Shown here: positions 1,439-62,973 of the stretch, piece after piece
Layout of the letters: the number at the start of each line of letters is the position of its first letter
Position numbering within the stretch: position 1 is the stretch's first letter
Assembly (NCBI GenBank): GCA_001574975.1
Contig: KQ965742.1
Span: 67,696-131,695 of the forward strand
Source: Gonapodya prolifera JEL478
Taxonomy: Eukaryota > Monoblepharomycota > Monoblepharidomycetes > Monoblepharidales > Gonapodyaceae
Reading direction: 5' to 3'
DNA length: 64,000 bases
Position numbers and translations under genes: made by a program
The notes under the pieces: generated by a model
Seen by the model: the letters and a program-made list of their open reading frames with translations, nothing else
Told to the model about the DNA's origin: nothing
Database searches by the model: none

Positions 1439-3920
1439 ATGGCAGACGACGGCGTCACCGTGAAATACTTTCTGCCCGAGTCCGAGCTGCCAAAGGCCTG
1501 GTACAACATTCAGGTGCTGGAAGACTCTCCCGATTGCGTTCCCCGCTATCTGCTCACACCCAAGTCCACTGCAGGCCGATCTGCCTCAACCACTCCCGCC
1601 TATCCTCCACCCTGGCACAAAGCAGCCAATCACGCCTGATGACTTGGCCCCGTTGTTCCCCATGGAAGTGCGGTCGCGCAGCGCAATTTCACGATATTTT
1701 CCTGACCATACTCACGACACCTTGTTTCTCAGCTCATCAAGCAAGAGGTGTCCACCGAGCGATACATGTGATTGCATTCCGCTGTTTCCACACGGCTTCT
1801 TCCCGTGCCACTGACTCCACATTCGCCACAGTGAAATCCCAGAGGAAGTCCGAGAGATCTACCGCCGCTGGAGACCATCGCCCCTGTACCGTGCCCGCGC
1901 GCTCGAGAAAGCCCTTGGGACGCCTGCCAAAGTGGGTCCAAAGCACATACTGAGAGAGGTTCGGAGTTGCGAAGCAAGGAGAGACCGAGCACCGAGGCCT
2001 GAGCGCTAAGCGCCGACCGAGGCGTCTGCCGGAGGCGAATGGCCTGCCGCGAAGCGGCTATTAGAGCGCGGAGCGCATATTCCCGCCGGAAGGAACTCCC
2101 CGCGGAGCGGAACACACTCGTGCAGGAGCGAGACGTCTGCCGGAGACGAATGATCCGTGCACTTCGTAGTACTTCTTATTGTGTGATCCCTGAACGTAAT
2201 CTCGTACCCTTTTTTTGCAGATCTATTACAAGTACGAAGGTGTTTCCCCCGTCGGCAGCCACAAGCCAAACACCGCCGTGCCCCAAGTCTACTATAACAA
2301 GCAAGCTGGCGTGAAAAAAGTCACCACGTCAGTGCCTATCTCCTCTCTCTTATGTCTTCCTCACCGACATCACTCTCCACTTTACAGTGAAACCGGTGCT
2401 GGCCAGTGGGGCGGCGCCCTCGCCTTTGCCGGGTCCATGTTCGACGTCGAGGTCGAAATCTACCAGGTCAAAGTCTCCTACGAGACAAAGCCATACCGCC
2501 GCCTTGCCATGGAAACGTACGGCGCAAAATGCTACCCGAGCCCAAGTGATCGCACCGAGGCTGGAAAGAAGATCCTTGCGGAGGATCCCAATTCGCCGGG
2601 GGTGCGTTGTTGTGTTGTGCTGGTTGTCGTACAATTTCAAACCGCACATTCCATTGTTCTATCGCGTTTGTTATTCTTCGGTTGTGCCATTGGGGTTGAA
2701 CTTACGTACGATTTCAAACCACCGCAATTTTCTCTCGTGTTGGGATTCAGTCGCTCGGAATCGCAATTTCAGAGGCTGGTGCGTTTCTCACCCGTCCTCG
2801 AACACCTCACCGTGCCCGCTCACTCACCGAACTCATCCCCCCATCCTTGCAGTCGAAGCCTGCGTGAAGCAGGGCGCCAAATACTGCCTGGGCTCCGTCC
2901 TCAACCACGTGCTTATGCACCAAACCGTGATCGGCGAAGAAGCCATGAAGCAGATGGCAATGGCCGGAGCGTACCCGGATGTCATCGTCGGCTGCACGGG
3001 CGGGGGGTCCAACTTTGGGGGCATCGTGTTCCCCTTCCTGGGACAGAGGTTCAGGAAGGAGGCGCCAAAGCCGTTCAGGGTCGTCGCGGTGGAACCGTCG
3101 GCGTGCCCAAGTTTGACTAGGGGGAAGTATGCGTACGACTTTGGTGACACGGTCGGGTTGACACCGCTCATCAAGGTGAGATGAGGACTTTGTCGAGTTC
3201 CGGCGGTCCGGTAGCAGCCGATCAAACTTCAATCAATCAATCACTACCCAATGCGTGTAGTCCCACACCCTCGGTATGTCTCCAACATTCATTTGCCTGT
3301 CCCATGCTCTACTCACCTAAACTACTGCAGGCCACGACTTCATGCCCCCCTCGGTACACGCCGGAGGACTCAGGTACCACGGCATGGCTGCGCTTGTGTC
3401 GCATCTTAAGGAACTTAACGAGATCGAAGCGATTGGTAAGTGTGTCGACCATCCCTCCACATTACCAGTTGACGGAATAGCAACTTGACGCGCCATGTGC
3501 CATTTAAAGCCGTGGGACAGAAGGAATGTTTCGAGGCCGGTGTGCTCTTCGGACGCACTGAGGGGATCCTGCCCGCCCCAGAGGCGAACCACGCGGTAAG
3601 AGGCGCCATTATTGAAGGTGAGGAGGGAGTACCAACCGCGGTGACGTTGGGGGCAACGTAACGTGATCGCTTTACCCTGGAAAAGCCCTCAAGTGCAAGG
3701 AGACTGGTGAAGAGAAAACAATTTTGTTTGGACTTTGCGGACATGGTTTCTTGGATTTACCTGCGTATGATAAGGTGGGTACATCTCAGAATGTGTTGTG
3801 AGGGCCACGATTCACACCTCTCGCCTTCCCATACAGTACAACTCTGGCACGCTTGAGCCTGACGCAACACTTTCCGAAGACGCGTTGGCCGCTGCTCTTG
3901 CCAAGCTTCCTTCAGTGTAG
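1439..3920 (+). CDS. trpB2: Tryptophan synthase beta-like enzyme, TrpB2 type
   Basis: This is a PLP-dependent enzyme of the TrpB2 family, which joins indole and serine (or a related beta-replacement substrate). About ten exons can be read: [11 protein letters not shown] at 1439; [14 protein letters not shown] after 1566; a short exon with [31 protein letters not shown]; then [19 protein letters not shown] from 2221. The Lys of GSHKPN is the expected Schiff-base residue, and [11 protein letters not shown] near 2990 binds the cofactor phosphate. Later exons carry [18 protein letters not shown] and [21 protein letters not shown]. The end is LPSV with TAG at 3918. The N-terminal 'W(Y)N..ADLP.PLPP.LHP' block and the length are diagnostic of TrpB2 rather than of the usual fungal fused TRP5 enzyme. 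The intron at 1932-2220 contains a GC-rich hairpin array. An origin by transfer is possible but unproven from sequence alone. Confidence 0.9.
1958..2149 (+). repeat. GC-rich tandem hairpin array, copy A (inside TrpB2 intron)
   Basis: About nine short perfect or near-perfect hairpins follow one another. Stems with loops: TTGC-GAA-GCAA (1967-1977), GCGC-TAA-GCGC (2003-2013), CGCC..GGCG (2011-2024), CGTCT-GCCGG-AGGCG (2023-2037), GCCGC-GAA-GCGGC (2046-2058), GCGC-GGA-GCGC (2066-2076), CCGC-GGA-GCGG (2100-2110), CTCG..CGAG (2117-2132), CGTCT-GCCGG-AGACG (2134-2148). The GCGTCTGCCGGAGGCGAATG-like block occurs twice (about 2022-2041 and 2133-2152), so the array has an internal duplication. It is far richer in G+C than the flanking intron and matches a second copy at 52262-52379. 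It is not coding: it lies wholly inside an intron whose donor and acceptor join family-conserved exons. Confidence 0.85.
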
Positions 3921-4031: not shown

Positions 4032-6656
4032 TCAAGATTGAGTCAGTCGCTCGATTGCACTCTGTGCCAGGTGGTTGCCTTGTTGCGCACTAAGGTCGTA
4101 CCACTCCAATGCGGCCTTTAAGTCTTTGGGTACCCCGCCCAGTCCGTGCTCGTAAAAGCGGCCCAAATCGTACTGTCCTGTGGCACCGCCACCGTCGGCA
4201 GACTTCCGATACCATTCCGCCGCCAGCAAGAGGTTGTTTGGAAGGTTGCCAATTCCGTGCTCGTACCAAGACCCCAACCGACCTTGCGCATCGGCCAAGC
4301 CTTGGTCGGCAGCCTTGCTGAACAAATTCCGTGCCATGTCCAGGTCCTTTGGTAGCCCACGAGTTCCGAATTCGTACGAGAGACCGACACGGTACTCGGC
4401 GAACGCATTTCCCTGTTCCGCTGCCTTTCTGAACCATTTTAGGGCCTGCACGAGATCCTTTTGCAGGCCTCCCCATCCACCCTCGCAAGCGCGACCGAGG
4501 GAACACTGCGCGGCCGCGTTTCCTTTGTCAGCAGCTTTGCGGTACCAACGTACTGCCTTGGTGAGGTTTTTCGTCAGACCTTTCACTCCCCGCTCGTAGT
4601 ATGACGCAATGACATTTTGGGCGTGGGGATCACCCTGGATGGCACGTTCCATTTCCATACTCAGCGACTCGGGAATCTACATAAAAAGGACGTTGTTGCG
4701 AAAGCGTTAGTGTACGCCATTCAACATTCTCGTCCCACGACCACATACTGACCTCTTCTTCGTCGTCGAGGATGCTGAGACCACTCGCACCACGAGATGG
4801 GGGTGGGTGGGACGGTAAGGACGCAGACGGGGAGGGTACTTGCAACCATGGTGGAGGTGAGCCAAAGTTGACCGAGTATTTGCGTGCGGTGGGTGCGTGA
4901 ATTTCTGCAGCAAGAGCAGCGGTCGCAGTCTCGGAGATTTCCATGAGGTCGCGCAACTCCCCGACGATCATGGCGAATGTCGGGCGTTGATCTAGTTCCG
5001 CTTCCCAACACCTTTGCAAGAGACTCCAAAGCTTCTCGGGGCAATCAGCGGGGCGCGCGACAGGATGGATTATTTTTTGAGCTCCGTGCTTGTGGACGGA
5101 TGTGGGATTGATGGAAAACATTTCGTACCCGATGTTGGCAAACAACCACGAATCGCCAGCCTGAGATCCTGCACCTTCCGGCACGTCATCACTGTCGCTG
5201 CTGTTGCGCACGTCAAGGAAACCAAAGTCTGTGAGAATTGGTTTTCCATTGTCATCAACGAAGACGTTGGAACTGTTGAGGCAGCCATGAATAACTCTGT
5301 GCGAGTGAAGGTACTCCACGCCCAAAGCTATTTCACACAACTGTGAGGCAAAAGATGGGAGATTGATTGTTACTAATGACATCATGGAGAATGCCATTGT
5401 CTTCCCACCATCTGGAGTCTCTTCTCCGACCCCAATCTCGTACGAGCAAGATAGTGCCGCAACGTTCCAGCAGGCATCAGTGGAGCCACGTAAAACACAC
5501 GGGCCGTCTCCACGGAGCCACCGAGGACGGGAAGGACGTTGCTGTGATCGAGCATATGCCACAGTTGCAGGGTTTTCAAAAATTGCTGACATGCGAGCGA
5601 TGCTCAGTAGTAATAAGGCGACTTTTGACAGTTCCCGTACCTGTCGCTTTGAGGTGTCTCGTAGGACTTCAATGACGACCTTGTCCATGTGTCCGTATAG
5701 CACTCCTCGATATTTTGGTCCCAACGATCCCTCACCAATACGCTCTCCAAAATTAATTTCCCACGGAGTTGTCATCCACGGTTCGATTGACGTTACGGCG
5801 GTTGGGCCAGCCGCAATCATGAGGGCGAGAAAGGCCCTGCGAACAAGACGTACACGTCGATATTTCGGTACGGTATATCATTGAGCAAGCAAGTTACGCA
5901 CTTGTCCAGAAACTCCCTGGTATGTGTCTTCTCGGGGTATTTGTCGATTTGTTTTTTCACTGCTTGCAGTGCGACACGATACTCGTCCCGTTTCAGCCGC
6001 AAAGCTCCAAGTATTTCTTGAGGAGAGCGTTTCGAGAGATCGCTGAGAGAGACTTCAGATGTCTTCTTATCGGACGCTTTGCCGGAAGGAGCAGTCAGGG
6101 CAAAAGCCAACCTTGAGACCCCATCAAGCACCCACCCAGGGCGATTCCATCTTGTTGAGGCCAAGTATCGAGAATTTCTGCTGAAACGAGCTGCGCAAGA
6201 TGTGTATTGTCACTGCCGAAGGGTGAAGACGGAATCGTCCTCACATCATAGCTTGCCGCGATCTCCCGCAAATGCCCACTGATCTGAAGCAATTCATCGT
6301 CATGCAAATCGATCGTGTAAAGTCGCGAAATGATGCTCTCGTCTGATTGGCGTGAAACTATGTCCTGAAACCATAGTGCAACTCTGCAAGTAGCCCGTTC
6401 CATGAGAAGAATTCATTATATGGATCGATCAGTCAGAAAATCACTCAGAAAAGCTCTCCAGTCCAGCCGCAGCCCGCGCCCTGGGTTCCAGTTCCCGCAG
6501 AGTCTCGAGGATTTGTTGCGCGTGAGCCAAAACCATTTCCGTGAGATTTCGGCGATGAGAAAGCCCGCCGGTGGCATCGCGGATCAACGCAAGTGCGGAT
6601 GCAACGTGATGGATGCTCGATGATGGATTCGGATTATTCTCTTCGAACGAAACCAT
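4032..6656 (-). CDS. Pseudokinase with MLKL-like helical N-terminus and C-terminal Sel1 repeats
   Basis: A multi-exon minus-strand gene whose start is the ATG at 6654-6656. The N-terminal ~200 residues are helical (TEMVLAHAQQILETLREL, then WFQDIVSRQSDESIISRL and HDDELLQISGHLREI). They resemble the four-helix/brace region of MLKL-type and fungal TKL kinases. The kinase fold follows: the glycine loop IGEGSLGPKYRG is degraded. The position of the ATP-binding Lys reads VVIEVL, with Glu instead of Lys. The catalytic loop reads VIHGCLNSSNVFV, lacking the HRD Asp. TDFG is kept. The C-lobe ends with CPEKLWSLLQRCWEAELDQRPTF. After a Pro/Ser linker, a last exon (4658 and below, acceptor just before IPESL) holds about five Sel1 repeats of the A..WYRKAAD.GNA..Q type. 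Kinase-Sel1 fusions are known in early-diverging fungi. Loss of both Lys and Asp argues for a signalling scaffold or effector rather than an enzyme. Confidence 0.85.
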
Positions 6657-8508: not shown

Positions 8509-11500
8509 TCATGGTGGTTCATTTTTGCTTTGCTCACGTGTACCTACCAACCCTCCAACGATGTCAGCTTCTGTCGGTAACATTCGCACGACGCTATCCC
8601 TCTTACTGCTTCGCTCGCTCGCCAACGTCTCTTCTGGACCATGCCACAATGCGGTGCGACTACCCATTGGAGACTGTATGCTTGCTTCGGAGGCCATTGG
8701 GGACTTCAATTTTGATGACAGAGGGATTAGCGGATCTGGTGACGACGCGGAGGCAGCACCTGGTCCTGTATTTTCGGTTGCAGAGCCCGAGGTTTTATTG
8801 GAAAGATTCGGTGGCACCCGAGACACTCTGCTGGGGTGCACAGGTGACATGCACATTGGACATTGTTGAGATCGTTCCAAGAACGTAAGGAATTCGGAGT
8901 ATAGTGCAGGAAACTCGCATGACGGACAGACGGACCATTCGGAAGTAACCATATGGCGCCCCTATTTGCGAGATCAGAGCAATCCTGTTTCCCACTGAAT
9001 AGCGCGACGACACTTACGGTAACAATGCAATACGGAAGACGATTCTTACATTCGGTACATGCAAGGGCTGTTTCTGGGAGCAAGGTCTCGCAAAAAGGGC
9101 AAGGCGATTTCGCCTCGTCCCGTTCATCTTTCTCGGGTCGTCTTGATAATACAAACGTGAATCAGTCAAACAAGCAGTAACCCACACAAAGACTAAAAAG
9201 GCTAACCTGATGATCTGTTCAATCTTTTTCCTATACTTGGCGTCCACAGTTTGCCGATACTCTGGTCGCATCACCATGGCCGCAAACTTCAATGCCGAGC
9301 GCTTCAGACCAGACCTATAGCATTCTACAACTGTGGAGGTCAGTATTGGTACGACATCTGTAATATAATTTTAGTTTGTAAGTTTGTGGGAAGCGGATCT
9401 AGTTCAGGAAATATGCGAACTCACGAGCAGGAAATTTGCTGATGTCGTTTGCAACTCGTATAAGCATGCGAGAAGCCTTTTCATGTTGCTCGTGTTTCAC
9501 GAGAATCTGATTAACCCCTGTATCAGAAATGCCATTTGAAGCTTTCGGTGGACAACTTACCTTGACCAACACGTAGCTGTGAAGAAGCGCGAGCATTCTG
9601 TCCAACTCCGCGGGGATCGTCAGATCTAACGTTCGCAACTGACGGTAGTTGTCCAAAAGGAGGTCGTGTGCGGCTCTGTAGTTTCCCTGTGCCTGCTCTT
9701 CTCGGGCAATGATGATCGCCGTACGTGCCGCGTCCTGGTACTGACCCAGAGACATGTAGAGCTTGAAAATAAATTTAGCATCCTTGTGAATGAAAAGGTT
9801 ACTGATAATCAAACATCAAAATTCAAATGCTCATTGGCACCTTGGGTACCCCGTCTGTGTCCCCCATGAGATAATCTATCAAAATCGCGGTCAGGGCGTC
9901 ATCTCTTGCAAGGCCAATCGTTTCAATTGCCAGATCCACGACTTGTGGATCGTCCGATGGTGCTTGCAAGAGCATTGATAGGGCTCGATGATACTCGTTC
10001 GTGTACATTAACAGCTTTCCGGCAAGAAGGTATTCGTGGTTGGCCTCAAAGTGCCCAATTATTCGTTGAACTTGCACCCAAATTTAGCGAAGTCAGAGCG
10101 AACAAGCTATTTTCAAAATACAATCGAACAACTCACGAAGCTGCACCGATCCGTCATCTTTAACCAAGTCCGCGAAGTAATCCATGATGTTGTGTTGCTA
10201 TAAACAAAATGTGTGATATCACGAGCAGAGATGATGGAAAGCGTGAAACAACCATACCTGCGCAACTGTGAACGCATCGTCATCCATTCCAGCGACATGG
10301 CAGAACTCAATGACAGACTTATAGTCTTTTACGCCGCTGAAAAATCGAGAAACAATCCGAGCAGCCTCGCGTGACTTTGATTTACGGACAACTTCGACGG
10401 CCTGAAAAACCCTTAGTCTTGCATAAAGACGCTCAAACGGAGACAAAACCGTACCGATTCTATATCCCGCAAGACGTCCACGTATATTAGCACGGCATTA
10501 TCCCAGTCCTTGGCGCGCTCGTATGCCTTTGCAGCGTCCGAGTATTGCCCTTCCGCTGAATTCAATCTTGAGACTCTATCCAATCACAAAACAGCGTTCC
10601 CTTGTTTCACCTTCTTTCACTTTCGCATATTGCGCAATGACTTTATGTGAGGTTATTTTGTCGAGGTAGGGGCCTACACGGTGTGTGTACTTGGCTGCAT
10701 AACAACCGAGAACTTTGTCATTCCAAGTTTCAAACAACACAGAAGGTGAAATACCTTTGAGCCATAGCTCTGCGGCTTTCTCCCATTCATTGGCCCTCTC
10801 ATAAAGCTGAGCGCCTTCCTGGAATTGTTTCAAGGTATCGAGAATAGCAGCACACTCGCAAAGAAGTTTGGTGTCCTTGGAATCTTCCAGCATCTTCATC
10901 CCACGAGTAATGTCGCCACAGCGCAGAGTCATGCGAGTTTGCCCAGAAGAACAGGCGGTCTCATGAAGTACTCTTTTACTTGGATGCCCAGAAAAGTCGT
11001 TTATGGTTTTCAGAGCAGTTTCAAACATCCTCAAGGCTTCGCCAAACTTTCCTGAAGTCGAGGAATGAGGAAGAAGAAGCCTAACAGCAATGAACTGATA
11101 ACTTGCCTTCAAATTCAAGCTGATGTGCATACTCTTTAGCGATTGTTGTGACTTCCTCAGGCTTGAGTTTTTGAGCAAGTATGAGGGCTTGTTCCCATTG
11201 CCTCAAGGCTCTTTTCAATTCCAAAGCTTCCACGGGATTGCCCGATAGGAGGTACAACCTTTGGGCTTCGTTGTGCTCCCGGAAGAAACAGTGTATATGC
11301 CCCGCAAGCTCAAGGCGGTCTTGTGCATGGTCGATCCGTTCCAGTATTAGAACCGATGACGCCTGTTTCAATTGACGATAGATTCGTTTCGCAACTCGAA
11401 CGTCAAGATTCCAAAGGCAAAACTCGGCGAGTCTCCGCCAAGGACCTGGGTTTGTTAGCTTCGTTGTGAGTGACCACATGGCTTCATTCAAGCGTGCTTC

Positions 11501-14456
11501 AGAACGCAGTAAAATCGGGGTCAAAGTCAATGATGGCTACCTTTTAAATTTCCAGACAGATATAACCGCTTCAGCGCCTCAAATTGAGACTCTTCATTCA
11601 TACTTTCCACAGAACTTGATTCTTCGTGGCTTGCCAGTTGCACAGAAGTCATTTTCCCACTCGAAAGCTTGAGCAGAAAAATGTGATAGCCATTAATTCA
11701 CGGCTTCTGCTGATTCTCACCTGACACCAGACAACTCCCCCACATAGTAATAAAGGCCTCAAACCATAAGGTAGCTTGGTGGTACTGATCTCTACAACCT
11801 TGCCTTCCTTCAAGGCCAGCGGGTTGAATGCGTAGGTGACGATAACGTCTGCATTCCAAATCACAAATATGTGTACAGGATGGGAAAGTGAGCGAAGGGG
11901 GCCAGGAAGCGCAGGTATTGGTTGGGTTTCCCATAAAACACCACCAACTATGGCTTTTTTATAATGTCATGAAAAGTCTTAAACGAGAATCCAGTCAGTC
12001 ACCTACCAGAAGTACGTGGGACCTCGAAAGTCTCCCCTGATGCTGAATTCACTATCCATAGGGTTGACCTTCCATCTTCTATGATGCATCGCGAACCGTT
12101 CCTGGGATGGGGACAGAGTCTCACTATAGGCTTTCGAAACATTGAATGAAGTCCAAACGTGAATGACGGTTGCCATACGTAACGAGATAATTGACTTACC
12201 TGTGGATGCTTATAGGTGTTGACGTTTCTCCATTCTTCGTCATATATCCAGTGGGATACCTCACCAGATTCATTCGCGTATATTAAGAAGTCATGTGATA
12301 ACTCAGACGCAACAATAGACGCAGAAGTCTCAAGCTTTGATTTGCCGGGTTGGGGAAATATCGCAGATTCACGGTTCTTCTCGAACGCAGTTTGGCTGCC
12401 CCCAAGAGAAAACACCTGGATTCTCCCATCGGTGAGCAGTGCACAGCACCAATGAATTGAAACAGAAAGATGTCGCACTGTACTCAGAGTAGTCTTCAGC
12501 GCAAATGTTATGTGAGTTTAGGGGCCATAAATGAATCAGAAGTTTACTCACAAACATTTCGACGCCCTTTTCCTTCTGACCCAAAGGATAGCAGATTATC
12601 TGGGTGTTGTTTGCGATAGCGAGCTGTGAAAAAAGACGTTAACAAGCTATTTCCAGACCCTTTCTTCCACCCCAGCTTACATAATTCGGGCCCAGCCCTA
12701 TCGTTCCAGGTTCGCACTCCGTTTTTGTAGAGACGCTCGGTGGCGCATTTCCACTTGCCAGAACAAGTCCCAGTCCGAGATCGGTGATCGTGACTTCCCG
12801 AAGATCCGTAAGATACGCTACTCGGGAAGAAAATGACGAAGAGCGCAGCGGGATTCGAGCAAGAAACGTGTGCAATGTACCCCTGAGGCCAGTTTCCAGG
12901 TCAGACAATGAACGCTAAGCTTTATGTAAGCAAGAAAGTCCCACCGTTTCGTTGCAACTGAAAGGAAACCACCGTCTGGACTCCATTCTGCACTTCCAAG
13001 GAGACCTCGATCCTCCTCTAGCCTTACAATGTCAGAGACTTCGCCCAGATCACTGAGTTCATGAATCTTGACACAACCGTCTCCAACAACGGCGACCTTT
13101 CCCAGAGAAACAGACACAGTTGCAGAACTCAGGTAGTCCCGATGATCTCGAGAAGAGTAAAGCTCAGCGCCGAGTCGGGATGGATCTCCAGGAGTTGATA
13201 ACCCAATTGAATTGAAAGAGCAAGGAGCGTGCACCAAATAAGCTCACCGGCTGATATTACAGCAACCCAACCATTCGAGAAGCCAAGGAGAATATGACCT
13301 TCTCCAAACCATTCGTACTGGACAACGTCACCATACCTGCAGAGAATTGGTGAGAACGCGATCAAGAAACTGAATCGAATTGCAATTTTCATCTCACTTT
13401 TGCTGGAACGTAAGCTCCACAGGACTTTCCCCATCGCCAATTTTTTGAACATAGAGACTGCGTTTCGCGACTACCATACTGAGGACACAGCGGGTGGTGG
13501 ATTTGCCTCCTCCAGACGTAACGCTGCGTAACCCAGAGAACTGACGACCAAAATTTACTCGGCTATCTAATATCGAAAATTTACTTTCACCTGCCTTGAG
13601 TTGAGTCGGTGCCCCTTTGATGGTTGTCTGCGAGATGGTTTCACCGTCACTGTCCGATAAGCTGAACTATTGCGAAGAATTCCAGAAATTAAGACGGTGT
13701 CAGGGCACAATCATCTCCGCGCATCGGTGGTTCAACAATTACCGTATTATCTTCACTGCCCAAGGCCAAGACACTTGACTCCGACTCCTTCTCCATTCTA
13801 TCAGAGAAACTCGGTACCATTCCCCAACAACCACCGGTGATGGTGCCGCCATGTTTCCCAAGAACAGGAATCCGCTTCGTTGTTGGAGTTAACTGCAAAA
13901 GAACAACGCTCCCCTTTGCACCTCCAAGAGCAATGTTGTCACCCTTCGCGTCCCATCCCATCCACGAAGCACCCCGCAGGTTTGTCTCCACTGAGCGCGT
14001 TGTCGAATTCCATAGGTGAACAGTTGATTTCGTCGTTGCTAAGGCGAGAATGTTTCCTGATGGGGACCATGATAGTGCTACTGGATCACTATGTTTCCCA
14101 AAGCTCAGCGACCCGCAAAGAAAAGACGTCGAACGCAGGCGTATACATACCCATCGAATGGAAAAGAGTCCACAACGCCTCCGCTTCGGTCCCAAATGTA
14201 AGCGATCTTCGAAGACCTGGTAGTTCCCAATTCAAAGCACGCCGATTGCGCCGATTTCTCGTGGTCTTCGATTCTCACCCAGCTGCAGCTAAAAACAAGC
14301 CGTGTATCTTCTGCCATTGAAACAGCGGTGCGCCGCTTCCAAGTTGTGATGCGGAGAAGTGTTTCTGTCCATATTGGAAATCACAATTCAGACAGACAGC
14401 GGCAAGCCTTTTATTCATGGGGTCGACAAGAGCTCTACAAATGGATTTACCTGCAT
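8509..14456 (-). CDS. IFT144: Intraflagellar transport protein 144 (WDR19)
   Basis: A large multi-exon gene for the IFT-A core subunit that drives retrograde transport in flagella. The N-terminal beta-propellers are read from 14430 downward: [76 protein letters not shown]. The TPR-like solenoid follows ([76 protein letters not shown]). The C-terminal zinc-ribbon region contains [33 protein letters not shown] and CPMC. Order and spacing match WDR19 along the whole length. The best start is a 6-nt coding exon ATG-CAG (14451-14456) spliced to KHFSASQ; this is inferred because no in-frame ATG precedes KHF in the next exon. After the zinc region comes a Ser-rich tail of about 100 residues. It indicates a flagellated life stage. 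Confidence 0.95.
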
Positions 14457-45800: not shown

Positions 45801-48800
45801 TTTAAAAGTTTTGAAGGTAAGATGAATTTGTTTGAGTCAATAAGTCTATTCCACTAAGGAACGTCTTGTTCCCAACTCCAGGGTTGTACTACTATCTTGG
45901 CTCCGTTGTCAACTTCAGCACTGAAGCCGAAGTGCACTTCAAGTATATTCAAGCGGCGTGTCGCACTGGGCAACTCAAGGAAGTGGAGCGCATCGTTCGC
46001 GAGAGCAACTACTATGACCCTGAAAAGGTTAAAAACTTCTTAAAGGTATGGTTTCAACATTATGCACACGCCCATCTTTTGCATTGCTCACGCTCTACCC
46101 ACTACACAGGAAGCAAAACTAACAGACCAATTGCCGTTGATTATTGTGTGCGACAGATTCGGATTCGTTCACGACCTGGTCCTCTATCTCTATCAGAACG
46201 AGCTGTCGAAGTACATTGAGATATATGTGCAAAAAGTCAATCCCGCTCGCACTCCTGCTGTCATCGGGGCGCTTCTGGATGTGGATTGTCCCGAGGTTCA
46301 GATCAAGGAGCTGATTGCGTCGGTGCGCGGTGTGATTCCAGTGGATGAACTTGTTGTAGAGGTCGAAAAGCGAAATCGTTTGAAGTTGCTTTTACCTTGG
46401 CTTGAAAGCAAGGTCAAAGAGGGCTCCCAAGACGTGAATGTTTACAACGCCATTGCCAAGATCTACATTGACAGTAACAACAATCCCGAGGCTTTCCTCA
46501 AAGACAACAAGGTGCGTTTTAATTAATAGTGAGGTCGTACTAACTGTTTTTCTGATCCTCGCACTTTCAGATGTACGACCCACGAGTTGTCGGCAAATAC
46601 TGTGAAAAGAGGGACCCCTATCTTGCGTTCATTGCGTACGAGCGGGGATTGTGCGATGCCGAGCTTATCCAAATCACCAACGAGAATTCGATGTTTAAAC
46701 ATCAGGCACGATACCTGGTCAAACGTCGCAGCCCCGAGCTTTGGCAATCTGTTCTCAACAATGATAACCCCTACAAGCGACAAATTGTTGACCAGGTCGT
46801 GGGAACGGCGTTACCGGATACTCAAGACCCCGAAGATGTGTCGATTACAGTGAAAGCATTCATGGCGGCCGATCTTCCCAATGAACTCATTGAACTGTTG
46901 GAAAAGCTTGTACTTGAAAACTCGGCGTTTAGTGACAACAGGAACCTTCAAAACCTGTTGATTTTGACCGCGATCAGGGTGAGTGAAGGTTCGGATCTTC
47001 ATCAGTTTCCAATGCCTTACTTCTCTGTTCTTGGAGGCCGACCGATCTCGAGTTATGGATTACGTTACGCGGCTGAACAACTATGATGCACCAGACATCG
47101 CTGGCATTGCAATTACCAATACACTTTTCGAAGAGGCGTATGCAATCTACAAGAAGTATGAGCAACACTTGGAGGCTGTCAAAGTGCTCATTGAGAATCT
47201 TGACCACGTGGATCGCGCTTACGAATACGCGGAGAAAGTCGACAAGCCTGATGTGTGGAGTCGTCTAGCAAAAGCACAATTGGATCATGCTCGAGTCAAG
47301 GATGCGATTGATTCGTACATTAAAGCAGACGATCCAACCAACTTCATCGAGGTTATCTCAGTGGCGGAGCGGGAGAACAAGTTCGATGATCTTGTTCGCT
47401 TTTTGCTCATGGCAAGGAAAAAGTCACGTGAAGCGGTCGTGGAGAGTGAGCTGCTCTATGCGTACGCAAAAGTAAACCGCCTCGCAGAGTTGGAAGAGTT
47501 CATTTCGGCCCCAAACATTGCCCAGGTAAAAGCTCCCGATTAAATTTTGTGATGACTCATTCACTGACCTACATTCTGGCAGATTGGAAATGTTGGGGAT
47601 CGATGTTTCGACGCCAAATTGTTCCAAGCTGCCAAAATTTTGTTCAGCAATGTCAGCAACTGGGCAAGACTCGCCACTACTCTGGTGTACCTGGGCGAAT
47701 ATCAGAACGCCGTCGATTGTGCAAGGAAGGCGAGCAGCACGAAGTAGGTGTTTTCATCCGATTCCTCACTGCCCGCTTTGCAAGTAACCACACTGGTCGT
47801 CTTAAGGGTGTGGAAGGAAGTCAACGCGGCATGCGTCGAAGCCAGAGAGTTCCGATTGGCTCAAATTTGTGGTTTGAATTTGATCATTCATGCTGAGGAG
47901 CTCACTGTGAGTTGTCGTGAAGATTCCACCAATCTATTGTCATGGCTCCAACAGCGCTCTCTTGTCGCTTGTAGGAGTTGATTAGGCAATACGAGAAAGG
48001 AGGTTACTTTGAAGAGCTAATGACGATGCTTGAAGCCGGGTTGGGCCTCGAAAGAGCACACATGGGAATGTTTACCGAGCTTGCTGTCCTTTACTCCAAG
48101 TACAAGCCTGAGAAGCTAATGGAGCATCTCAAGCTCTACTGGAGTCGCATTAACATCCCCAAGGTCATTCGTGCCTGTGAGGCAGCCCATTTGTGGCCGG
48201 AGCTCGTTTTCCTCTACACCCACTACGACGAGTACGACAACGCCGCGTTAACAATGATGGCGCATTCATCTGTTGCGTGGGATCACGGGCCGTTCAAAGA
48301 CGTGGTTGTCAAAGTGGCGAACCTTGAAATCTATTACAAGGTGAGATTGAGCGGTCTCTGTTCTATGATGTTGGAGTTTTATACCCGTCTACTTGCAGGC
48401 ACTTCAATTTTACTTGAACGAGCAACCCCTTCAAATTAATGATCTCCTTGTAGTTCTTACTCCGCGCGTGGACCATTCACGCGTTGTCTCCATGTTCCAG
48501 AAGAATGGACACCTACCCCTTATCAAGCAATACTTGATAGCCGTACAACAGGTGAAGCCGAGAAACATGGTCCACGGAGGTGGGAAACGCTAAACCTGTT
48601 CCATATTATAGGCAAACAACAACGCTGTCAATACCGCCTACAATGACCTCTTGATCGAGGAAGAAGACTACAAATCTTTGCGTGACTCAATTGACCACTT
48701 TGAAAACTTCGACAGTGTGGCCCTTGCTTTACGTCTCGAAAAGCACGAGCTCCTCGAATTCCGTCGAATAGCCGCTCATTTATACAAGGTATACTGCATC

Positions 48801-50623: not shown

Positions 50624-53041
50624 CTACTTTTTACCAAACACTTTCCAGTTTCGTCTTTCTTTGATCGTCGGTCCATCTGCTTCCTCTTTAGGATCTGATC
50701 TGTAGTCTGCATCTCCTCCCTTGAGTCTTGTAAAGATCGGCTCTATCCACATTGTGCTTGTCGGGTCATGTCGTTTCTCGGAGCGATCCATGATCACTGG
50801 GAGACCCGTTACAGTCGCGCCAGGATCACGTAGCTGGCGGGACAGTTTTGCCACTTTTGGAGGAGAGCCGCCCATCATGGGAGTAGTCGGACCTGCGTGA
50901 TCGGGATATTCTGGAATGTGTCGTCGAGGTCCTGGTGACGGTGGACGGGAGTTTGGGCGTGGACGGACCAGCACAGAGGGCAACCCATGTTCCCCGTTGT
51001 ATCCAGATGTTTGCTCTTGGCCTCGCTTGGGCAAAGGTGGGGGCTCCCCGTCTCCACTTGCTGGAATCGCGAGGCCACGCTTGTTGGGGGGAACGAGTAC
51101 CGCTTGCTCATGCAAAGTTGGAGCACCGTAGCCTTCAACCGGACTCGTTGGTGCCGGCTGCGCACGAATGAACCGAATCGCGTTTGTGCCCGCCGTTGAT
51201 GGGAGTGCGACCGGCGATGAGCCACGAGCGGAGAATGGCACCGCCACCCCACCCCGCGTGATGCCGTGCTCCACGAGCACAGGACGGTGCTCTTCATTGC
51301 GCACGTCTCTTTCCAGCTCTTCCCAATCGGGGTCGCTGTTATTGGCTCGTTCGACGTGCAACTTCTTGCTTGATTCTTTGGGCGGCTTGTTCAGCAACAT
51401 CCCGCTCGAATGCTTCTTCATCGACACCCGGCGCGAATCGAAAAAGCCCAGAAAGACACGCGACGACTGCACGGCTGGTTTCGTTCGCGATGGGGTTGTG
51501 TCAGGGAACCCCCCGGGAATCCCCGCGTCACCCGTACTGGGCAGGATCGACATGGACCGGGCGGCGTCGGCAGACGAGCCTCGCTGCTGGTTGGAACTGG
51601 GTGATCCCGCATGCCCGCGCGAACGGCCCCGGAGCAAACGGCGGAATGGCTTGCGCGAGTTGGAGGAGGATTTGGATGTGGACCGACGTGTGTGTGTGCG
51701 GGTTGCAGACGGTGCCGCCGGTTGCGCGTCGGGCGTGTGTGGCTGACCTATCACGGGAAAAGCGTGCAACAGTCGCACTTTCCAACGAGGCGACACGAGT
51801 GGACTCACCAGGTGCAACGAGGTACCCGCTCGCGATCAATCTCATGGGCGACGCCAACGGCGCAACGCTGCGGGACCTGGAGAGCCCCTGCGCGTCGGGC
51901 GACCACAACCAGTCGACGGATGACGTGAGCTGGCTTTTGGAAGCCATGGACACGGCAGCAGCCACGAGGGGAGGCTGAGCCTCGTCGAGGGGCGCGTGGG
52001 AGGGCGTGGAGTATGAGCGGAGACGGGGCGCTCCTGAACGGTCCGAGGCGGAGAATGGTGGGGGAGATGGTGGCGCGGGGGAGGGTTTTGCGTCCACGGA
52101 GAGGATGTATGTGCGCGCGACGTGCAGGAGGAGGCGGAGGGTTGGGTAGAGCGCGGCCTGTATGTGGTGTGCAGGGACAAGTTGGCGGGTCAGCTTCCTG
52201 GTGGCACGGCTGAAGAGTCACACCAGCGGGCCGACGTTGCGTGGGATGTTGCGTGTAAGAAACGCTCCACGCCGTGTAATCGCGCTTCGCGCAAGGTCAC
52301 TCGCCTCCGGCGGACGCCTCGGTCAGCACCTAACAGCGCTTTAGGCCTCGGGCTCGCTGCGCTCGCGGAGGGAACTCACCGAGGACGCGGAATTGCTGTC
52401 GAGCGTCTTCTCTGCCCACTTGACGGCCTCGCCCGTTGCAAACTGGGCCCACGCAGCGCACGCGATGGCGAGGTCCTGGACACCCCCTGACGCCATGGCG
52501 GGCTCTACGAATTGCTCGTAGGTGGGTATGATGACACGGCGGACGAAGAAGATGGGGAAGGTTGGATGGAAGGGAAGGAGGAGGAGGAACAGGAGTTTGA
52601 TGGTTGGGTAGAATGGAACCCTGGGGGTGTGGGGTGTTATAGTGGGTTCGGGTTTCCCCGATGAAGACAGTATCTCCAGTATCGTTTCTCCATTTTGACC
52701 AACCACTTCTCACATTCAAAAGAAGCTCCGACCAACAACCCGCTCCACTGCTGTTAGTCACTCACCAAAAGAAGAAGACCTCGACTGTTCGTTCTACAAC
52801 CAGCAATGCACCCACGCATGTCCAATAGGCAACCACGTGCAAGGGAGTAGGAGAGTCAGGACGCCGACGGAGTAGCCGAAGCGACTATTGCGTGTGTGTT
52901 GTTGGAGTCATGCGTCCATTGTCGTCGAATGCGGATCGATTGCAAGTGAGACTGGCAAGGTCAATCGACCGATGCAGCGGAGCCACTCACGGCAGAGACG
53001 CCCCTTCCGATGCACACGAGCCTGGCAATTAAGAGGATCAT
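50624..53041 (-). CDS. REEP/TB2-HVA22 family ER membrane-shaping protein with long disordered tail
   Basis: Five exons: 52991-53041, 52766-52884, 52380-52620, 51809-52157 and 50624-51747. They total 1884 nt and give 627 residues in one frame. Exon 1 is MILLIARLVCIGRGVSA; exon 2 contains HVVAYWTCVGALLVVERTVE. Exon 3 contains WVPFYPTIKLLFLLLL and FVRRVIIPTYEQFVEPAM, followed by an Ala-rich amphipathic segment. The YW..vE..W.PFY..KL pattern is the TB2/DP1/HVA22 signature of Yop1/REEP hairpin proteins that curve ER tubules. The usual LYPAY motif of the first hairpin is not recognisable. Exons 4-5 add about 490 mostly disordered Pro/Ser/Arg-rich residues ending ERRNWKVFGKK, far longer than most relatives. 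The open frame usually read from 52097 begins at GTG, so it has no own ATG, supporting the fusion. The fourth intron (52158-52379) contains hairpin-array copy B. Confidence 0.72.
52262..52379 (-). repeat. GC-rich hairpin array, copy B (inside REEP-like gene intron)
   Basis: Read on the minus strand, this copy matches copy A over GACCGAGGCGTC-YGCCGG-AGGCGARTG and the following CGCGAAGCG hairpin, ATTA and GYGGAGCG. An upstream GAGGCCTRARCGCT block also matches. Stem pairs differ between copies: A has CCGC-GAA-GCGG where B has GCGC-GAA-GCGC (52282-52292). It occupies the 5' half of intron 52158-52379 and begins at or next to the splice donor. If the intron is not removed, it would add about 15 residues and a stop to the REEP-like protein. 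Confidence 0.8.

Positions 53042-62232: not shown

Positions 62233-62260
<28 letters not shown>
62233..62260 (+). repeat. Poly(G) tract of 28
   Basis: An uninterrupted run of 28 G bases about 110 bp past the MFS stop codon. Such a run can form a G-quadruplex and is prone to length change and sequencing error. Its length here should be treated as approximate. Confidence 0.75.
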
Positions 62261-62723: not shown

Positions 62724-62973
62724 GCGGCAACGACAATGAAGGATCAGACACAGTAACTGGCAGTTAACAACTTTCGGGTATCAGCAGAGTCGATAAGTTG
62801 GGGAAAGAATTAGAGTCATCTCGTCCCTCCACACTGGATCGCATTGCCGCTTGGAACGTTCCGAATTGAGTGATGATTTCCCGGTCTGTTTGCGTACCTT
62901 AGCAATCGCGTCGAGTCCGCGTGGATTCGTATGTGGTGAAGGGTTGATGATCCAGAAAGAGAAAACTGCGCGC

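Follow-up and report, generated by a model that had tools for sequence, protein, structure and literature searches.

A short hairpin-rich nuclear repeat, probably inserted into two existing spliceosomal introns of Gonapodya prolifera

Two genes about 50 kb apart on contig KQ965742.1 of Gonapodya prolifera JEL478 each carry, within one intron, a G+C-rich block, which we term copies A and B; the 64,000-nucleotide (nt) stretch of DNA that was analyzed is referred to below as the window. The two copies are homologous, lie on the sense strand of their host genes, concentrate strong hairpins and are bordered by unrelated flanks. They probably represent a short non-coding, non-autonomous interspersed nuclear hairpin repeat, which would have been inserted into already existing introns rather than made in place.

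Two homologous blocks and their host introns

The copies and the introns that contain them are as follows.

1986..2076, plus strand: copy A, the block homologous to copy B (local search, shuffles, alignment)
52262..52356, minus strand: copy B, the block homologous to copy A (local search, shuffles, alignment)
2126..2152, plus strand: partial third copy of a 27-nt core (89% identity to 2015-2041)
1957..2152, plus strand: insert A, mini-hairpin array, G+C content (GC) 0.66 (approximate extent by eye; no target-site duplication defines its edges)
1932..2220, plus strand: host intron A, 289 nt, GT...AG, phase 0, in the gene of a TrpB-like pyridoxal-phosphate (PLP) enzyme (spliced TrpB-like match)
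52158..52379, minus strand: host intron B, 222 nt, GTGAGT...CAG, phase 0, in a predicted gene without a Pfam match (canonical ends, open flanking frames, coding scores)

Copy B, read from 52356 to 52262 on the minus strand, aligns with copy A over 96-97 columns, with 75 of 89 ungapped columns identical and 14 substitutions and short gaps between them. A first-pass annotation of the window had noticed this similarity over about 60 bases; the similarity is real, its length was underestimated, and both strings that were quoted are present in the alignment, with the CGCGAAGCG hairpin confirmed. Local alignment of the two introns scores 85, while the maximum among 2000 dinucleotide shuffles of intron A is 35 (intron B was entered in this test as 52159-52381, its ends 1-2 bases off). 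When the B region was searched locally against the window, the A block on the plus strand was the single strong partner (E 7e-12), the next match being a fragment at 2126 (E 0.014). With each intron as nhmmer query against the window, the other was recovered (E 8e-9 and 3e-7), and intron B also gave a weak match at 2126-2156 (E 0.48). The partial third copy of the core thus lies inside intron A itself. Allowing at most three mismatches, the 27-nt core has three matches in the window (2015-2041, 2126-2152 and 52298-52324) and none in 100 shuffles, a count that speaks for rarity rather than independent discovery since the pattern was derived from these same copies. Both introns are G+C-rich and their overall folding energy is ordinary for their composition, which might invite the view that two hairpin-prone introns resemble each other by chance; with no shuffle approaching the A/B score or containing the core, this is extremely unlikely. 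One hexamer occurs twice within the core, as GAGGCG in A and B and as GAGACG in the 2126-2152 fragment; these two direct hexamers change in step, for which pairing gives no explanation.

Intron A is defined by the protein that its removal restores. Joining 1931 to 2221 yields a 68-residue peptide with an unbroken match to positions 65-132 of the NCBIfam TrpB-like model (E 3e-35), a fragment that falls under the whole-protein cut-off, and the downstream exon of this gene matches PALP above cut-off. If intron A is retained, stops appear in all three frames. As for intron B, its host gene has no Pfam match, and the gene model is a prediction made solely from composition and splice consensus. In the exon stretches 52380-52496, 51810-52157 and 50627-51740, minus-strand frames have the best coding score and no stops, and the minus-strand frames of the intron contain 3, 2 and 2 stops; the coding-score model used for orientation here was trained without this gene. 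Two observations oppose the sense orientation of copy B: one plus-strand frame is open through intron B, with a coding score of -0.8, and the ab initio gene finder, which also fused genes, placed a gene on the plus strand across copy B. We took the orientation from the frame test, which we trust above the gene finder. With A placed by its spliced TrpB-like match and B by its minus-strand coding scores, both copies are intronic and on the sense strand of their hosts, as the first-pass annotation had proposed.

Near the acceptor of intron B, and with copy B lying upstream of it, is a CTGAC (52193-52189) that we take to be branch-point-like; the branch point of intron A is less clear. Over 10 nt, the donor region of intron B (52375-52384) and a stretch inside copy B (52317-52326) show 90% complementarity; the stretch may base-pair with the donor, or the match may be due to chance.

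Mini-hairpins and the evolution of their stems

When read on one strand, the repeat appears to consist of G+C-rich mini-hairpins in a row, most of which have a GNA triloop and a C-G closing pair. The hairpins of the two inserts are listed here.

1967..1977, plus strand: mini-hairpin TTGC-GAA-GCAA (triloop listing, insert A)
2003..2013, plus strand: hairpin H1 of copy A, GCGC-TAA-GCGC (A/B alignment)
2027..2037, plus strand: hairpin H2 of copy A, TGCC-GGA-GGCG, with one U-G pair (A/B alignment)
2046..2058, plus strand: hairpin H3 of copy A, GCCGC-GAA-GCGGC; the fourth pair from the loop is C-G (G-C in copy B)
2066..2076, plus strand: hairpin H4 of copy A, GCGC-GGA-GCGC (A/B alignment)
2100..2110, plus strand: mini-hairpin CCGC-GGA-GCGG, beyond the block shared by A and B (triloop listing)
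52325..52340, minus strand: hairpin H1 of copy B, AGCGC-TGTTAG-GTGCT (A/B alignment)
52302..52312, minus strand: hairpin H2 of copy B, CGCC-GGA-GGCG (A/B alignment)
52280..52294, minus strand: hairpin H3 of copy B, TTGCGC-GAA-GCGCGA (A/B alignment)
52261..52273, minus strand: hairpin H4 of copy B, GGCGT-GGA-GCGTT, G-U pairs included (hairpin count)

Three GNA hairpins are common to A and B, with their loops unaltered, and the number of hairpins is not equal between the two introns. On the sense strand of insert A, four GNA hairpins with a Watson-Crick stem of at least 4 pairs were observed against 0.09 expected (0 of 5000 shuffles), and two were observed in insert B against 0.04 expected (P 0.0004); the antisense strand has none of these in either insert. 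C-GNA-G hairpins with at least four G-C pairs occur five times on both strands of the window, and all five are in the inserts (three in A, two in B), on the host sense strand. The GNA class came to notice on reading inserts that had already been picked, which makes these P values descriptive. It is a non-arbitrary class, because DNA hairpins that combine a GNA loop with at least two G-C pairs are described as extraordinarily stable, and GNA-loop DNA mini-hairpins also as nuclease-resistant (PMC4686876). Three-base-loop hairpins with a stem of at least 4 pairs are not enriched in the whole window (265 observed, 266 expected). Energy models give equal values to sense and antisense mini-hairpins with Watson-Crick stems, and for three G-U-containing ones the computed energy is slightly better on the sense strand, one of these being equal as DNA. 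With energies so nearly equal between strands, it is the counts that argue for a GNA strand preference.

The first-pass annotation had pointed to covariation in one stem, and the double change in H3 is indeed present. Four more stem pairs change on one side only, with pairing kept through G-U. In A's four triloop hairpins 16 of 17 pairs are kept in B, the lone exception being opposite a gap, and in seven other, overlapping A hairpins 22 of 30 are kept. We simulated pairing by dropping gapped columns and placing the same substitutions randomly over the block. On the sense strand, all 18 triloop stem pairs are kept from A to B where 15.0 are expected (P 0.017), but from B to A the figure is 16 of 19 where 15.3 are expected (P 0.47). 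The antisense strand gives P 0.45 and 0.75, and restriction to Watson-Crick pairs on the sense strand gives P 0.13 and 0.53. There are nine transitions, and those within triloop stems comprise 4 of 5 C/T versus 0 of 4 A/G (Fisher P 0.04, post hoc). The data lean to sense-strand pairing; covariation is weak, and compensatory evolution is hinted at, not established. Hairpin-templated repair would produce a double change without selection.

The same figures bear on whether the copies are an intron-hosted functional RNA, small nucleolar RNA (snoRNA)-like or otherwise structured, whose hairpins are kept by selection. Such an RNA would fit the sense orientation of both copies, the complete retention of A's stem pairs, and the four stem transitions, all C/T, a type of change that keeps pairing through G-U in the sense RNA alone. 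We nevertheless find it unlikely, since retention from B to A is at the level of chance, the hairpin number differs between the introns, the fold is no better than that of shuffles, and neither intron has an Rfam match at gathering score. Permissive Rfam scans of both introns, taking E-values up to 5, gave one chance-level match each (E 3.7 and 4), both antisense to the host gene, and a known RNA family, snoRNA or other, was rejected for want of a credible covariance match in intron A or B. What had been proposed as a dispersed element tolerated or selected in transcripts is thus dispersed, intronic and in sense orientation for two copies, while selection on its pairing is not established.

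Intron size, insert edges and rival origins

Both host introns are out of proportion to their neighbors. For comparison we used 49 gene-finder candidates in three regions with conserved domains, which have a median length of 61 nt, a pooled GC of 0.43 and a GC of at most 0.50. Introns A and B, at 289 and 222 nt, have GC values of 0.59 and 0.64, above all 49 candidates. The only candidate of at least 222 nt (47526-47747, 222 nt) is a wrong call of the finder that contains apparent coding sequence. The excess over the median length is 228 nt in A and 161 nt in B, and the inserts as set by eye measure 196 and 115 nt. Introns A and B have the appearance of short introns that an insert has lengthened.

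In A, 54 nt separate the shared block from the donor and 144 nt separate it from the acceptor; in B the corresponding distances are 23 and 104 nt. The flanks that reach from the block to the splice sites are no more alike in A and B than shuffles (donor side P 0.56, acceptor side P 0.85), and the same holds for the adjoining 30 nt of exon on either side (P 0.59 and 0.93). The first-pass annotation had copy B begin at the splice donor and saw in this a sign of introner-like origin. Its interval does start at 52379, but the homologous block starts at 52356, 23 nt inside the intron, and the donor sides show no resemblance. Introner-like elements bring their introns along, with splice sites either included or recruited at the insertion edges, and in some known types the insertion site supplies both splice sites (PMC9860276). 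Compatible with this are the location of both copies in introns, their sense orientation, the short distance from the shared block to the donor in B, and the hairpin-rich insert set by eye, which starts only ~7 nt (B) and 25 nt (A) from the donor; since the hairpin-rich stretch extends beyond the shared block, the true edge in B near the donor is uncertain. An introner of the recruiting type would, however, have its edges at the splice sites. Because the shared block excludes the splice sites and the flanks are unrelated, an introner origin is unsupported, and with introns that look enlarged and no target-site duplication found we consider it very unlikely. While introners of Micromonas, Dothideomycetes and others are likewise short repeats in introns of unrelated genes, A and B have only an internal block in common.

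Other known classes were tried and rejected. A tRNA-derived short interspersed nuclear element (SINE) was set aside because the window has no tRNA gene according to ARAGORN (bacterial code) and no tRNA family among its Rfam matches, although a diverged head is possible. A miniature inverted-repeat transposable element (MITE) was set aside because the inserts, whose edges are uncertain, have no bounding inverted repeats, with only one 5-nt match at each.

Several observations weigh against an interspersed repeat inserted into existing introns. The 64-kb window yields just two copies and one fragment, and exact-pattern scans of viral contigs and prokaryotic genome contigs gave no further credible copy; the single match in these scans, in a viral contig (L001), has 19 nt in common with the core, and its 361 surrounding bases are otherwise unlike, so we take it as chance. 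Neither as DNA nor as RNA does the block fold more stably than shuffles. The inserts have no terminal inverted repeats or sharp edges and no target-site duplication, the longest direct repeat between 50-nt stretches centered on each insert's plausible edges being 5 nt. Under a loose filter, 13 of the 19 GNA/TNC triloop hairpins listed are outside the inserts and 6 inside. The 7-mer GCGNAGC is mildly over-represented in the window (35 versus 26.9 expected, reached by 5 of 100 shuffles) and is common outside the inserts, so that the element is marked by its longer stem. Candidate introns make up 23-26% of the three genic regions, and two copies out of two would fall on the sense strand by chance one time in four. 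As there are two copies only, we claim no preference for introns or for a strand, and no selection on structure.

Possible mode of spread, published likenesses and genomic context

If the inserted hairpin repeat is accepted, insertion probably took place as DNA, into short pre-existing introns, where the region upstream of the branch point and acceptor could expand without harm to the reading frame. Spread at the DNA level may have involved d(GCGAAGC)-like hairpins in single-stranded form, another element supplying the activity. Stem pairs might be maintained by repair templated on the hairpin, or by mild selection that favors an intron RNA which is compact and can be spliced. A bolder version, to which we give little credence, is that of a mobile nuclear family of GNA mini-hairpin DNA that settles preferentially in spliceosomal introns with its GNA loops on the coding strand, spreads via single-stranded DNA (for example, the strand displaced in transcription) and has its stems kept by hairpin-templated repair.

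In style, the closest published relatives are mitochondrial DNA hairpin repeats (PMC2800124, PMC7218506, PMC4524435). The repetitive hairpin-forming elements (RHEs) and double-hairpin elements of the mitochondria of sponges, Allomyces and other fungi are also short, non-coding, dispersed, defined by hairpins and thought to be mobile (PMC2800124, PMC7218506). As with RHEs, there are dispersed copies with conserved hairpins here, namely two copies with three common GNA hairpins; unlike those elements, which we compared by description, A and B are in spliceosomal introns of nuclear-type genes and have several triloop mini-hairpins per copy. The LIMP and HyLIMP elements of Lobosphaera incisa mitochondria are likewise dispersed palindromic repeats with nearby remnants, and HyLIMPs show complementary stem mutations; in contrast to A and B, LIMPs have one long stem of pentanucleotide units and are mitochondrial and always intergenic (PMC4524435). 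The GNA mini-hairpin DNA of d(GCGAAGC) type has the same loop and closing pair, and G-C stem pairs (PMC4686876); it is a physical-chemical motif from short synthetic DNA and no repeat family. We found no description of the present repeat among the listed titles and openings of abstracts in a search that had most subscription papers outside its reach.

These likenesses raise the question of whether A and B are nuclear copies of a mitochondrial hairpin repeat that arrived with organelle DNA. Such repeats are present in fungal and other mitochondrial DNA (PMC2800124, PMC7218506), and the spread of palindromes from organelle to nucleus is described for Volvox, as stated in PMC4524435. However, A+T-rich flanks of the kind expected of mitochondrial DNA were not seen around the blocks by inspection, no dedicated test having been made. 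We regard a mitochondrial origin as quite unlikely.

Elsewhere in the window, 8509-14231 (minus strand) encodes WDR19/IFT144 domains and an IFT121-type zinc finger (below cut-off), which marks it as a flagellar transport gene. Clathrin repeats, a Peptidase_C54 (ATG4-type) domain and a DNA ligase are also present, in genes with ~60-nt introns. From this gene content and these introns, we infer a flagellated, fungus-like eukaryote that is probably a chytrid-grade (zoosporic) fungus. Protein kinase and Sel1-repeat open reading frames adjoin on one strand at 4032-5877 (minus strand) and perhaps form a single kinase-Sel1 gene. A match to SNORD12/SNORD106 at 62735-62832 (minus strand; 46.4 bits, E 1.5e-6) is the only Rfam match at gathering threshold in the whole window, and a run of 28 G is at 62233-62260 on the plus strand.

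If true genome-wide, the finding would place a hairpin-built repeat, of a kind that we found described only from organelles in the sources consulted, in the nuclear introns of a probably early-branching fungal lineage. Its strand-specific loop signature would open both the insertion mechanism and the strand bias to direct testing. For work on introners it would serve as a useful negative case, in which a repeat residing in introns lengthens them but does not create them.
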